Positions 49,035-55,476 of a stretch of DNA of 64,000 nucleotides are shown here, piece after piece; within the stretch, counting starts at the first letter, position 1, and each line of letters opens with the position of its first letter. The translations under genes and the position numbers were made by a program. A model generated the notes under the pieces. It saw only the letters and a list, made by a program, of their open reading frames with translations, was not told the origin of the DNA and made no database searches. The stretch spans positions 1 through 64,000 of the forward strand of contig QYZZ01000013.1 of assembly GCA_003838145.1 (NCBI GenBank), written 5' to 3'. The DNA is from Tindallia sp. MSAO_Bac2 (GTDB lineage Bacteria > Bacillota > Clostridia > Peptostreptococcales > Tindalliaceae).

Positions 49035-49060
49035 TCCCGGTCGGTCGATACCGACCGGGA
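49035..49060. repeat. perfect hairpin between prdB and prdD
   Basis: An 11-base stem (tcccggtcggt / accgaccggga) with a 4-base loop, 12 bases after the prdB stop. On the minus strand no T-run follows, so it may protect or process the mRNA rather than end it. On the plus strand a T6 run follows, giving a good terminator against antisense transcription. Confidence 0.8.
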
Positions 49061-49072
49061 TTTTTTGATTTA

Positions 49073-49801
49073 TTATACTTTTGCGATGTACTCGTATGCC
49101 AGTGGTACAATTTTACCAGCACTTGGTATTTCGACCAGTTGTGTCAGTGAATCGATAACAATGTTCCGTTGCATTTCCACATCGTTTGGAGCTCCGGCAT
49201 TTGCTCCCATTGGTACCAGTGGAGCTACCGCTCTTGGAGTACCATTTTGTCTTACTACCGGTGGTAGTGCTGCAATGATAATTGTAGGAATCCCCGATTC
49301 CTCTATCGCTCGCTGTACAATAACAGCAGAGCGGTGACAGGTACCTCAGCCAGCGGTTAGAAGAACCGCATCAACGCCTTCTTCATGAAGCTGTCGGGCT
49401 ATTTCCGGGCCTGTTTCTTCCTTAAACTTGGTCTGGTCGCCGCCGCCACCCATGAAACCGTGGTTTACGCCAGAGATCTCTTTGATAAATCCTTCTTCCG
49501 CAAGTTCACGAACCCGGTCAATGGGGAACATGCAGTTAATGTCTTTGTTGACGTCTGCATTGTCGTAACCGCCGTGAGAAACCATCATTTCCTCTACGGG
49601 TGCGTCTCCCGGAATTACACGGAATGTAAAGTCGCCTGCCAGGTTAAACCTCTTGTCGGACTGCATATGCACACCTGCTGCGGTTGCAAGAGCCACTTTC
49701 ATGTCTTTCAGCTCTTTTGTCACCGGTGTCCAGACAGGAGGAGGGGTGATTGGTACAAATATTTCTGACTGCAGATTTTTGACAATTGTCATATCAGCCA
49801 T
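49073..49801 (-). CDS. prdB: PrdB, D-proline reductase selenoprotein subunit
   Basis: 242 residues with selenocysteine at residue 152, encoded by TGA at 49346-49348. The frame goes on for 90 more codons to TAA at 49073 and ends LAYEYIAKV. The active site reads LLTAG-Sec-GTCHRSA. PrdB reduces the ring C-N bond of D-proline bound to the PrdA pyruvoyl group. A SECIS-like hairpin follows the TGA at 49307-49333. Ordinary gene callers stop at the TGA and give a 151-residue fragment. Confidence 0.94.
49307..49333 (-). promoter_or_regulatory. bacterial SECIS-like hairpin in prdB
   Basis: On the mRNA strand CGCTC-T-GCTGT pairs with ACAGC-GAGCG around the loop TATTGT. It begins 13 bases after the TGA, with the loop about 24-29 bases away, the range used by SelB. 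Confidence 0.75.
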
Positions 49802-50134: not shown

Positions 50135-52042
50135 TTAAGCTTCCGGTTCGTAGATTTCCAGTCTTTTCTTGCTTTTGGGAAGAATCTGCTCGTTTGCTAC
50201 CAGATCCATTTCCACTCCTGTTTGCTGTTCGATCATGTCGATATTGTTTTCTTTAACAACAGGATTGAATTTTCTTTCCGGCTCTTTGATTTCCTCACCA
50301 GCCATAGCTGCTTTCAGCATCAATGTTGCCCGGATCGCATCTTCTTCGCAAAGTGTATTGTTAGCCAGGATTTCGTTTTCGATTCCCTGATCTGACTTGT
50401 TGTGATCCACCATGTATTTCATATGCTCGTTACCAACAACCAAAGCTCCCTGCTGTGCGCAGAAAGACATACCTACTACAGTTACTTCTCTTTCTCCCAC
50501 TTGCTCATGATGGCTGGCAAAGTCGATGTGGTTGTTTCCAAATCCTTCTGTGGTAATGAAAGCCCCGTCCAGATCCATGGCTTCCACCAACATTCCCAGT
50601 CTATCGGAGACATAGAATTTCTCGGAGTTTGCCTGTGGTGATCCGACAAATACAACGCCGGCCAGATCCAGTTCTTCATCTTTCATCACATGCTCTACCA
50701 ATGGCTCTCTCCAGTAGTGACGTGAGTTTTCCTTGGAAGCAGGGCCGATGCAGGTAAGTGCATGGATACCGCCGTCCAGTACTTCCAGTGGAGAAAGCAT
50801 TACAGGTACATTTCCAAGGTCTACGTTTGGCTTTCCGCCAACAATGCCCACTGGCTCTACCGGCAGGATCAGGTTGTCGTGCATAGCTCCCTGTCCCATG
50901 ATTTCTTTAATAATAAGAACTTTCTTTTTACCAGGTCTTCTATATTGAACCAGCTCTTCTTCTTCAACCACCAAGTTATCATCCAGTTTTTTGATAGCTT
51001 CACGGATTTCCTGAGTGATAAAATCTGTCGCTTTGTGAGCTGCCAATGGTCCCGGACGCTCCATGTTCATTTTTTCTTTAATGACAACTTCTGTTTTGAT
51101 TAGGATGTCGCCTTTATCCGGTGCTCCCGGACGTCCCCACATTATGTTTTTGTCCAGTTCGCCTTCAGATGATCCAAACTCTCCAATCTGAACGCCTTTT
51201 GCATCGGTTCCGGTTACTACCATTACAACGCCATCCAGTACGCGAGTTGCACCGGCACCTAGCTTGCAGTCCTGTTCTTTGGTTGCAATTGGCTGAACAT
51301 CCATGATGGTTTCGGAGTACTGGTTGTAGTTTTCTTCCGGAATAATATCCACTTTGATGGACGTTACAATATCACTTACGTTAACAGCGTCGTCACAGAT
51401 ATTTTTACGCAGATACAAAGTTGTTCCATCAATCTTGGTTTCATCTGCCATTTCAACTTTATCGATCTTAAAGTGCTTTTTAACCAGTGAACGCATTTTT
51501 TTAGCTTCTGCGGATTCCTCTGAGGATACTGCTTCTGCAGCGGCTGCCTGCTCAACAGGTGCAGTTGCTGCAACGCCTGCTGCCGGAGCACTGGATGCCA
51601 CAGCGCCAGTTAGTCCTATAGGGAATTCCAAGTCAATATTTTTACCTTCACCAATATGAATCTTCACAACTCCACCAGCGTTTTGCACAACTGGCTGCTG
51701 AGCTGGTTGACTTACTGCCTGAGCAGCTGGCTCAGCTGATACAGGTGCTTCCTTGGCTGCTTCTTTTGGCGCTTCTTCTGATTCCATTGCCTGGATGCCT
51801 TCTACAACATCCGGAGTTAAGGGAGTCAGTGAATCAACGGTTTTTGTCACTTTTGCACCAATTACCTCACCAATTTTTAAGCAGTTCTCCGGGATGGTTA
51901 ACAACCCAGAATCCTCCAGGTCCGGGAAAATAGCCGGATCTTCAAGGCTGCTTGCTTCCAGAACGGTTCCTGCTTCAGTTCTGCAACATACAACCGCAAC
52001 TTTGTTCATGTTCTTTTTCGCAGCTTCTGCTGTGATTGCCAT
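50135..52042 (-). CDS. prdA: PrdA, D-proline reductase proprotein
   Basis: 635 residues. By comparison with characterised PrdA, the chain is cut before a Cys that becomes the pyruvoyl group; here this is Cys431 in HALTCIGPASKEN, giving pieces of about 45 and 23 kDa. Residues 80-175 form an Ala/Pro/Gln-rich linker between an N-terminal domain and the PrdD-like middle. GGAGG lies 6-7 bases before the ATG. The pyruvoyl group binds D-proline for reduction by PrdB. Confidence 0.95.
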   Translation of the reverse strand: MAITAEAAKKNMNKVAVVCCRTEAGTVLEASSLEDPAIFPDLEDSGLLTIPENCLKIGEVIGAKVTKTVDSLTPLTPDVVEGIQAMESEEAPKEAAKEAPVSAEPAAQAVSQPAQQPVVQNAGGVVKIHIGEGKNIDLEFPIGLTGAVASSAPAAGVAATAPVEQAAAAEAVSSEESAEAKKMRSLVKKHFKIDKVEMADETKIDGTTLYLRKNICDDAVNVSDIVTSIKVDIIPEENYNQYSETIMDVQPIATKEQDCKLGAGATRVLDGVVMVVTGTDAKGVQIGEFGSSEGELDKNIMWGRPGAPDKGDILIKTEVVIKEKMNMERPGPLAAHKATDFITQEIREAIKKLDDNLVVEEEELVQYRRPGKKKVLIIKEIMGQGAMHDNLILPVEPVGIVGGKPNVDLGNVPVMLSPLEVLDGGIHALTCIGPASKENSRHYWREPLVEHVMKDEELDLAGVVFVGSPQANSEKFYVSDRLGMLVEAMDLDGAFITTEGFGNNHIDFASHHEQVGEREVTVVGMSFCAQQGALVVGNEHMKYMVDHNKSDQGIENEILANNTLCEEDAIRATLMLKAAMAGEEIKEPERKFNPVVKENNIDMIEQQTGVEMDLVANEQILPKSKKRLEIYEPEA

Positions 52043-52072
52043 GCGAATCGCCTCCTATTCTTTATTGTTTCA

Positions 52073-53359
52073 TTAATCTTCACATCGTCTGATCAGTTTT
52101 TCACCGGCGGCTCGCAGAACATGATCCGTACTGTGGTAAGTTGGAACTCCCAACCTGGGAGCTACAGTCATCACTGTGTTCGTTCAGTCTCCGCAACTGC
52201 CGGTAAGTAATACCTGAATGCCTTTTTTCTTCATTTTCATTACGGTCTCTGCCTGTCCAGGGCATTCTCCCGGTTTATCACACCGATATCGACCGTTAAT
52301 TTCCACCATTCTCTTGCACTTTTCTTCTGCTACTATTTCAGCACCCATCGCCTCTGCTATTTCTCTCAGCCTTGGCTCCTGTGCACCGCATTCGCAGGCC
52401 AGCAGTCCAATCTTTCGGCTTTCCTGAGGGTAGGGCATGGAAACCAAAACGCCACCCAGGGTTTTTACAATTGGTGAGTCTTCTTTGCCGGCACTGCCGG
52501 TAAAGGGACCGCCCAAGGTAATTTCCCCAAAAGGTTTTACAAATCCGCCGGCTTGTTGAATGTATTTTCCAACAGGCTCTCCCAGCGGAACATCCAGAAA
52601 TACTTTTCCCTTTTGTCCATCTTTGACCCGTCCTGCTACAGTGAAGTCCTTTTCGATAAAGGGCTTTCTTTTTTCAATGGCGTTAACGATATGTTTTACA
52701 GTCTCAACATTTTGTACCACCGTTCCTGCTTCCAGCGGCAGCTGTCCCGGTTCCAGTTCAACGCCAAGTATTTCTCTAACAACAACCCGTTCATCACCGG
52801 ATGGATAAATATCCGGTAAATATGTTATTTCAATGCCTCTTTCCAGGGATGCTGCTCTTTTAATCGCTCTTACTGCTTTTTTGTATTTGGCTTTAACTGC
52901 GATATAAGCTATCGGGGCTTTTGTAATTTCCTTTAAGTATTTGGCACCCCGGACAACAACCTGAGGATGATCTTCCATAAACTGAAGATTGTGGGCCAGT
53001 AATGGTTCGCATTCTGCACCGTTTATAATCACACTGCCTGCCTGCAAATCAGCTTTCAGTTTGATGTGTGCCGGAAAACCTGCTCCTCCGGCGCCAACAA
53101 TGCCCGCTTCCTCTATGGCTTCCAGCATGCTGTCAGTCTCTCTGATTTTTACGTATTCATCAGGCTGTTCTACCTGAGGTATGATGGATATTATTTCATC
53201 CGTAATTTCACTTACGGTTCCGTAGACGCTGGCATGAATGTTTGCACCCAACCCCTGAGGTTTGGCAATCAGCTGCCCCTTCTTAACAAAATCACCAACA
53301 GAAACAATTGGCTGACAGGGTGCTCCAACATGCTGTCTTAATGGTAAAACGATATTCAT
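52073..53359 (-). CDS. prdC: PrdC, RnfC-like electron-transfer selenoprotein
   Basis: 428 residues from the ATG at 53359, with GGAGG 8 bases upstream; a GTG at 53368 overlaps the site. TGA at 52184-52186 is read as selenocysteine (about residue 392) in a C-G-D-Sec motif. The frame continues 36 more codons to TAA at 52073 (ending EKLIRRCED). The RnfC-like core has VGAGGAGFPAHIKL and INGAECEPLLAHN. It is thought to pass electrons to the reductase. It is first in the operon, 23 bases after the predicted transcript start. Confidence 0.92.
52145..52163 (-). promoter_or_regulatory. bacterial SECIS-like hairpin in prdC
   Basis: On the mRNA strand AGCTCCCA pairs with TGGGAGTT (one G-U) around the loop GGT, about 29-33 bases after the TGA. 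Outer ACTGT / ACAGT segments could extend it. Confidence 0.7.
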
Positions 53360-53392: not shown

Positions 53393-53409
53393 TGCAACCT
53401 CCGTGCCAA
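53393..53409 (-). promoter_or_regulatory. sigma-54 promoter of the prd operon
   Basis: Minus strand TTGGCAC-GGAGG-TTGCA, an exact match to the -24/-12 consensus. The predicted start is near 53382. Confidence 0.93.
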
Positions 53410-53550
53410 CTTTTGATATTTCTTTATCAATTTTTTTCGTTTTCTTTTAAAATGTTGATAAATCAGACTTTACGACTTTTATTTTTTTATTTTTATAGAC
53501 TATTCCTATATATCTATATGCTTTTCCGATATTCTATTAACAACAAAAAC

Positions 53551-53564
53551 GTCAGCGGACTGAC
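53551..53564. promoter_or_regulatory. candidate PrdR operator 1
   Basis: GTCAGCGGACTGAC, a perfect dyad (GTCAG-N4-CTGAC) 142 bases upstream of the -24 element. The same motif recurs at 53681-53694 and, less perfectly, at 53662-53675. Apart from these motifs the 344-base gap between prdC and prdR is AT-rich and I see no gene in it. Confidence 0.6.
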
Positions 53565-53650
53565 ACTTTTAATCAGACATATTTTTATATGTCTTTTTAT
53601 CTATGTATATATCCTGTATTTTTAGGCTTTTCACTCGATTTATTTCCAAA

Positions 53651-53705
53651 AACAAAATAGTGTCAACTGATTGACGTATAGTCAGTCAGCTGACACTATT
53701 TTGTT
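53651..53705 (-). terminator. prdR terminator containing two more operator-like dyads
   Basis: A 20-base inverted repeat with one mismatch (53651-53670 / 53686-53705), followed on the minus strand by GTTTTTGG, 7 bases after the prdR stop. Inside it lie GTCAACTGATTGAC (53662-53675) and GTCAGTCAGCTGAC (53681-53694), the same dyad as at 53551. Confidence 0.8.
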
Positions 53706-53712
53706 TGATAAA

Positions 53713-55476
53713 TCACAGATATTCTTTCATATCATAAAATTTAAACTTATAGTACAGTGTACTTCTGGGTATATTCAGTAGTTTGGCCGCCTTCGCCTTA
53801 TTATTTCCAGCGGTTTCCATGGCACTTCGAATAGTTCTGATTTCCATTTTTTTGATGTTTTCCTGCAGATCCAGACTTGCCGGCTGATGATCATCTTCCT
53901 GCTCATCTCCCCGTTCAAGAATTCGCTCTGGTATGCTGCTCTTCTTTATTACATTTTCTTTCGAAAAAATCACCAGGTGTTCTATTGTATTTTTCAGTTC
54001 CCGTATGTTGCCAGGCCAGTTGTAGTTCATCAGGATATGAAGCACTTCTGCATCGATCTGCGGAACCATCAGGTTGTTTTCCTCACAGAAATCAGTAATG
54101 AAATACCTTAAAAAGATAGGAATATCTTCTTTTCTGTTTTTGAGACTGGGTAGATCAATATGAACCACATTAAGGCGATAATACAAGTCTTCCCTGAAGG
54201 ATCCCTGAAGCACCATAGCCTCCAGGTCTCTGTGAGTTGCCGATATCAGACGCACATCGATATCAATGGGCTTTTCTCCTCCAACCCGTACAATCTGTCT
54301 TTCCTGAAGTACCCGAAGCATTTTTGCCTGCATATACAAAGGCATGTCTCCAATTTCATCCAGAAAAAGTGTTCCATGATTGGCCAGCTCTACTTTTCCG
54401 GTTTTTCCTTTGTTTAATGCTCCGGTAAAAGCACCTCCTTCATAGCCAAACATTTCACTCTCAAATAAATTTTCCGGAATGGCGCTGCAGTTTATGGCGA
54501 CGAAGGGGCCTTCGCGGCCACTGGCCTGATGAATGGCACGGGCAAAAACTTCTTTTCCGGTTCCGCTCTCGCCGCCAATGAGAACACTGCTGTTGGCAGC
54601 TGCCACTTGCTGTGCTTCCTGAATTTTTTCCCGGATGATATCGCTTTTCCCTATAACATTATGGAAAGAATACTGTTCTTCATGGATTTTTTCCACTTCT
54701 GTTTGCAAGAGATCCAGCTTTTCTTTTGTCGTTTCCAGCTCTTCTGAAAGATTGGTGGTCTCAGTAATGTCTCTGTCAGTTGATACCGCCGCTATCATTT
54801 CCCCATTAATGAAAATGGGTATGGAGCTGATAATGGCATAGCTTCCGGGTCGCGGACTATGGTATACATTTCTTATGGGTTTTTTGCTTTTAAGGGTTTT
54901 GAGCAGTAAGGCCGTAGGAAAAAGTTCTTCCAGGTTTCGTCCGACGATATCCTTCTGATCAACCTGATATAGTTTTTCTATCCCTTGAGACCATAGCAAA
55001 ACCAGTCCCTCTGCATTTACCACACAAACTCCTTCATATAAGCTGTCCAGAATTTTTTCCAGCGCTGTGTGCATTTCGTCAATTTTTGAGTAAACCTTGT
55101 TCAAAATGTCATTGACACGAATGATTCCTACAACCTTACCTTCACGAACCACGGGTAACCGGCCAATATTGTTCCTTCGCATAAGGTTTCTGGCTTCAAT
55201 GGCTTTGGCTTCTTCCGTTGAAACAATGACATTTTGATTTGCCATTTCGTCCAATGACCTGGTCAGATCTTCTTCCGATCTGATCTGTTTCATCAGATCC
55301 TTAAAGGTTAACACGGCAACAACTTTTTCTTCTGCATCTATAATGATAATATCATCCAGATTATGGCTGACCATTGTATTGATGGCTTGTCGGGTATTCG
55401 CTTCATTGTTTATCTTAATCAGCCGCTGGTCCATAATATCGCCAACTGTGTATCGGTCAAGTTGGTGCAAAAACAT
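53713..55476 (-). CDS. prdR: PrdR, CBS-PAS sigma-54 activator
   Basis: 587 residues. Two CBS domains (about 6-60 and 75-130), a PAS domain (about 145-245), an AAA+ domain ([16 protein letters not shown], the sigma-54 loop [11 protein letters not shown]) and a Fis-type helix-turn-helix ([20 protein letters not shown]) come in order. There is no receiver domain. Its place beside a sigma-54 promoter on prdC and the family known from Clostridioides support activation of prd by proline. The CBS pair may also read an adenine nucleotide. Confidence 0.93.

Follow-up and report, generated by a model that had tools for sequence, protein, structure and literature searches.

Predicted intrinsic terminators are centred on predicted PrdR activator sites downstream of prdR in many genera

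In a 64,000-nucleotide stretch of clostridial DNA (the window), two of three predicted activator sites (UAS) for the sigma-54-dependent regulator PrdR form the core of the predicted intrinsic terminator of the prdR gene itself. Comparison of about 32 genera suggests that evolution has repeatedly built predicted terminators exactly on predicted PrdR sites.

Three predicted PrdR sites lie between prdR and the prdC promoter

The genes prdR, prdC, prdA and the remaining prd genes follow one another in one direction in the window. Read along the gene strand, the prdR stop codon is followed by 17 bases, site 1 (53695-53680), 3 bases, site 2 (53676-53661), about 95 bases, site 3 (53565-53550), about 140 bases, the sigma-54 site (53408-53393) and prdC. 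The features of this region are as follows.

53713..55476, minus strand: prdR, sigma-54-dependent activator, 587 aa (NF041552 TF_PrdR, 872.9 bits against a cut-off of 795)
53650..53706, minus strand: hairpin of the UAS pair with outer arms AAACAAAATAG/CTATTTTGTTT, then a U-rich tail; predicted prdR intrinsic terminator, from folding
53680..53695, minus strand: predicted PrdR UAS, site 1 of the pair, TGTCAGCTGACTGACT (13.7 bits, matrix made without this genus)
53661..53676, minus strand: predicted PrdR UAS, site 2 of the pair, CGTCAATCAGTTGACA (16.7 bits, the top of the 64 kb)
53550..53565, minus strand: third predicted PrdR UAS, TGTCAGTCCGCTGACG (14.4 bits; 157 bases upstream of the -24 element)
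53544..53571, minus strand: second hairpin resembling a terminator, weak (-8.2 kcal/mol), with the third UAS at its centre and a T-rich tail after it
53393..53408, minus strand: sigma-54 (-24/-12) site of prdC, TGGCACGGAGGTTGCA, exact consensus match
52184..53359, minus strand (52040-53359 with TGA read-through): prdC, proline reductase electron-transfer protein (TIGR04481, 536.8 bits)

Ordinary ORF calling truncates both prdB and prdC. An in-frame TGA is read through in prdB (49050-49801, minus strand; U152), consistent with selenocysteine, and another in prdC (U392) is probably a selenocysteine codon as well.

An earlier note on this DNA had described a dyad, GTCAG-N4-CTGAC, at 53551 and 53681, with a weaker copy at 53662, and had placed all three 140-300 bases upstream of an exact sigma-54 promoter for prdC. 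Pattern matching confirmed these positions, with exact matches at 53551 and 53681 and two mismatches at 53662, and placed the three predicted sites 157, 268 and 287 bases upstream of the sigma-54 site before prdC (TGGCACGGAGGTTGCA). While the dyads are present as described, the true motif is longer (YGTC-N8-GACR), and the supposedly weaker copy is instead the highest scorer when sites are ranked with a leave-genus-out matrix, built on 134 sites from 30 other genera. With this matrix, the three sites take ranks 1, 2 and 3 in the window. Single-site scores are not extreme, as 20 simulated windows contained 10 matches of at least 13 bits; what exceeds chance is the grouping of three sites in one gap.

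The exact dyad occurs only twice in the window and five times in the entire 2.48-Mb genome, and the 33 matches with up to two mismatches in the window exceed the count in every shuffle (18.0 ± 3.7). We considered the three other exact genomic copies as further PrdR targets and rejected them since all lie inside reading frames; two of these score as UAS-like and one does not score at all. A strict pattern for close site pairs returned no match in the genome, a result that carries no weight, as this pattern misses even the pair in the window.

Activation of the prd genes by PrdR is cited as established in C. difficile (PMC7438776, PMC6615313). The PrdR UAS consists of TGT and ACA inverted repeats 10-12 bp apart, and several UAS have been reported before the prd operon of that species (Nie et al. 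2019, PMC6615313). All three window dyads have TGT/ACA half-sites at this distance and lie upstream of a prd -24/-12 promoter near prdR. Their half-sites (TGTCAG/CTGACT, CGTCAA/TTGACA and TGTCAG/CTGACG) comprise in each case one exact copy and one with a single end change. Because both the motif and the presence of several sites before the promoter fit the published description, the three dyads are strongly supported as predicted PrdR UAS of the already known kind; the proposal that they are PrdR operators is likewise strongly supported by their motif, number, spacing and position across the order. The resemblance to the UAS of Clostridiales extends to the regulator family, the TGT-N10..12-ACA dyad and the several sites before a prd sigma-54 promoter, whereas the main text of PMC6615313 mentions neither terminator nor hairpin, and the pair-plus-one layout and terminator overlap described below were not found there.

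The UAS pair is the core of a predicted prdR terminator

Sites 1 and 2, together with their flanking arms, form a stem of 21 outer and 4 inner pairs whose centroid fold has an energy of -34.6 kcal/mol and a z of -10 relative to shuffled sequences. The hairpin starts within 7 bases of the prdR stop codon and has the stem-loop expected of an intrinsic terminator. In the terminator scan, the hairpin was scored at -30.5 kcal/mol with its centre exactly on the UAS pair, and TTTTTGG follows at this boundary as the U-rich tract, the T's pairing in part with the A-rich 5' arm. Two dyads are thus built into the predicted prdR terminator, as the earlier note had stated, and the arrangement recurs in many genera. 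Its picture of a hairpin at the last two dyads holds but was incomplete, since the 53551 copy also has a small hairpin of its own (53544-53571). An Rfam search gave no family at the gathering score, and sub-threshold miRNA matches were dismissed as expected from any long hairpin.

A pair-plus-one layout is common in prdR gaps

We searched 394 genomes of the order with NF041552 and obtained 95 with a match at E <= 1e-150, 62 of them above the family cut-off; no PrdR was found in the viral contigs searched. The comparison set comprised 50 prdR-prdC gaps and 60 gaps between prdR and the following prd gene, falling into 32 genus-level groups in which three further within-genus copies are counted as groups of their own, with the first listed gap taken for each genus. 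Apart from the leave-genus-out and paralogue tests, the gaps that supplied the matrix also supplied the layout statistics.

A -24/-12 site is present in nearly all of the 60 gaps, and the dyad recurs in most gaps of the order. Its motif across the gaps is YGTC-RRWWWWYY-GACR, with 140 sites of at least 10 bits against 0.75 in shuffled gaps, although this matrix was trained on the gaps it scored. In the common layout, two sites spaced 17-19 bp (about 18) lie at the prdR stop and are followed by a third, usually 100-130 bp beyond the first and about -120 to -175 from the -24 element. The distance from the prdR stop to the pair is at most about 50 bases in most genomes, and in some the pair overlaps the stop codon. 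At five loci the first PrdR site appears to span the stop codon, so that the 3' end of the coding sequence would fall within both UAS and hairpin.

The second prdR-like gene of one genome (locus L192) stands in a diverged cluster of prdR-, prdC-, prdA-, prdB-, prdE- and prdD-like genes with 33-53% identity. There were no clear PrdR sites in this cluster (best score 8.7 bits), which suggests that its regulator may have a different recognition sequence.

Predicted terminators track the sites across genera

Each gap was scanned for hairpins followed by a T-run, and the control kept the UAS in place and shuffled the flanks 24 times. At dG <= -8, a predicted terminator overlaps the UAS in 23 of 32 genera compared to 6.4 ± 2.1 in the shuffles (maximum 10), and at dG <= -20 in 15 genera compared to 1.3 (maximum 3). 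Among the 26 genera with a predicted terminator, 22 have one centred on a UAS site or pair. The centre of the best terminator falls within 1 nt of a site or pair in 17 and exactly 9 nt from one site in 5. The latter distance corresponds to the middle of an 18-bp pair, and in these genera the other copy of the pair spans the stop codon or is degraded. In the remaining 4 the best terminator is centred away from the UAS. The best prediction lies elsewhere in g39, g5 and g104, and the UAS are kept with no predicted terminator on them in g103, g50, g87 and g90.

Positional coincidence could in principle produce such an overlap, if terminators and UAS both simply lie just after the stop codon and palindromes resemble hairpins anyway. 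Intrinsic terminators usually lie close behind stop codons, the UAS dyads do have hairpin potential, and the flank shuffles still yielded the 6.4 genera with a weak UAS hairpin. We nevertheless consider coincidence very improbable and disfavour it, given an excess over the flank shuffles of about 3.6-fold at dG <= -8 and more than 10-fold at dG <= -20, the centring of the hairpins on the sites, mostly to within 1 nt, and the covariation of arms and spacers presented below. The centring includes third sites: in four groups (g38, which is Clostridioides-like, g105, g113 and g10) it is the third site that bears the hairpin, at a distance of about 115 bases from the stop, which argues that the hairpin tracks the UAS rather than the stop codon.

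On a PrdR tree, the state (hairpin on the pair, on the third site, or none) changes at least 15 times, although the tree is a quick one and a few changes reflect the energy threshold. The earlier note had held that a hairpin kept where the dyad is gone would speak against its reading; we saw the reverse, in that the dyads persist and the hairpin is present in some genera and absent in others. No terminator is predicted on the pair in the two nearest relatives (L138 and L146, two genomes of one genus).

In these two relatives, the third site before prdC lies inside a stem with 19-base arms (AGACCACCCCAAAAAG...) and no T-run, a kind of stem that the pair lacks. A mobile repeat was considered as the source of these long arms and rejected, as the arm was found nowhere else in the two genomes.

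Arms and spacers covary

Among the 19 genera with the pair, the outer arms (8 positions per side) are paired in 99 of 152 cells compared to 73.1 ± 5.6 when the 3' sides were redistributed among genera, and the spacers (4 positions) in 45 of 76 cells compared to 32.5 ± 3.2. None of 2,000 shuffles reached either value, although the P values are optimistic because the shuffles ignore relatedness. The arms and spacers are not conserved in the way the UAS are, and stay complementary while their sequence varies: the dissimilar arms AAACAAAATAG, AATACAAAAG, AAAGGATGG, AAAGAAAT and TAGAAC each pair with their own partner. At locus L164, a G in one half-site is matched by a C in the other, so that the stem is preserved although both dyads become weaker. 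Arm complementarity at the third site, with one gap per genus, was not above chance (3.36 compared to 2.89 ± 0.41).

PrdR-like paralogues repeat the overlap

A second set of 15 PrdR-like genes, behind which no prd genes were found (at three of these loci the contig ends soon after the gene), was absent from the matrix training. Most have the pair-plus-one layout after their own stop codon. A predicted terminator lies on the UAS in 13 of 15 compared to 4.5 in shuffles (maximum 7), and at dG <= -16 in 9 compared to 0.7 (maximum 2). Pair-level covariation was not significant in this set (P 0.14 and 0.16), because the hairpins are often built from a single site and different arms.

Enhancer sites as terminator stems

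We hypothesize, with good confidence, that palindromic enhancer sites have been reused as terminator stems, such that the sites activate prdC while the terminators end prdR and insulate the promoter. From the three sites, PrdR would act on the sigma-54 promoter to activate prdC and the prd genes that follow. Because each site is a palindrome, its RNA can form a stem, long where two tandem copies pair and short where one copy folds on itself. Once mutations had supplied complementary arms and a T-run, a site would become an intrinsic terminator, which would end prdR and keep prdR transcription out of the sigma-54 promoter, and selection would repeatedly have preserved the two functions in one set of bases. 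Direct results of the computation are the sites and their conserved layout, the hairpins, the exact centring and the compensatory changes. Our inferences are that PrdR binds, that termination occurs in the cell and that the terminators insulate the promoter.

A terminator on the pair leaves the pair exposed to polymerase, so PrdR and polymerase must meet there. One alternative, which we regard as unlikely, is autoregulation, an effect of bound PrdR on its own termination that the earlier note had raised as a possibility. Here PrdR on the pair blocks polymerase leaving prdR or alters termination, and proline would set the amount of full-length prdR mRNA. Given the position of the pair, near the prdR stop in most genomes and over it in some, polymerase has to traverse it to complete the message, and LacI at O3 makes a roadblock of this type that shortens its own transcript (PMC3711431). 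However, conservation does not single autoregulation out, since in some genera the hairpin has moved to the third site, and no terminator is predicted on the sites in several others (g103, g50, g87 and g90), nor on the pair in the two nearest relatives. Autoregulation also fits poorly with the Clostridioides-like genomes, where a PrdR UAS pair before a separate prdC folds at -17.9 kcal/mol, and this hairpin follows a polysaccharide deacetylase-like gene unrelated to prdR. The assignment of g38 to Clostridioides is inferred from its prdA and prdC promoters, whose sequences are identical to the published ones of C. difficile 630. Similarly unlikely is a reading in which the fused enhancer and terminator form a regulatory switch: proline-dependent PrdR occupancy would change termination of its own gene, and one element would read out this occupancy for both the target promoter and the activator mRNA.

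In Neisseria and Pasteurellaceae, DNA-uptake signal sequences are known to serve as the stems of terminators (Kingsford et al. 2007, PMC1852404). There too, close complementary copies of a short recognition sequence are co-opted as a terminator stem, but those signals serve uptake and number at least a thousand per genome, whereas the PrdR UAS are predicted gene-specific activator sites. We found no description of such co-option for activator sites in the papers searched. LacI O3 resembles our case in that an operator lies near the 3' end of the regulator's gene and before the controlled operon; however, it is a repressing roadblock shown by experiment (NAR 2013, PMC3711431), while the PrdR case pairs an activator with a terminator-like hairpin predicted from sequence. 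Among the papers searched there was no direct precedent for an operator lying within the terminator of the gene for its own regulator, an absence that is weak evidence.

These data provide a comparative case, spanning many genera, of the sites of a bacterial enhancer-binding protein built into predicted intrinsic terminators, and they tie the evolution of activator sites to the end of the neighbouring gene. They also caution against motif finders that treat activator sites and terminators separately. For proline Stickland metabolism, that of Clostridioides included, they refine the description of the PrdR motif and of its fixed arrangement of three sites.

Genes next to the PrdR-like paralogues

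Genes downstream of the paralogues were named by eye from their sequences. At seven loci (L174, L176, L181, L185, L188, L194 and L195), a PrdR-like paralogue with three sites precedes genes for sodium:neurotransmitter symporter-like transporters. FAD-dependent oxidoreductase-like genes come next at several of these loci, and L188 also has a proline-racemase-like gene. The PrdR-like paralogue may control a second proline or hydroxyproline pathway.
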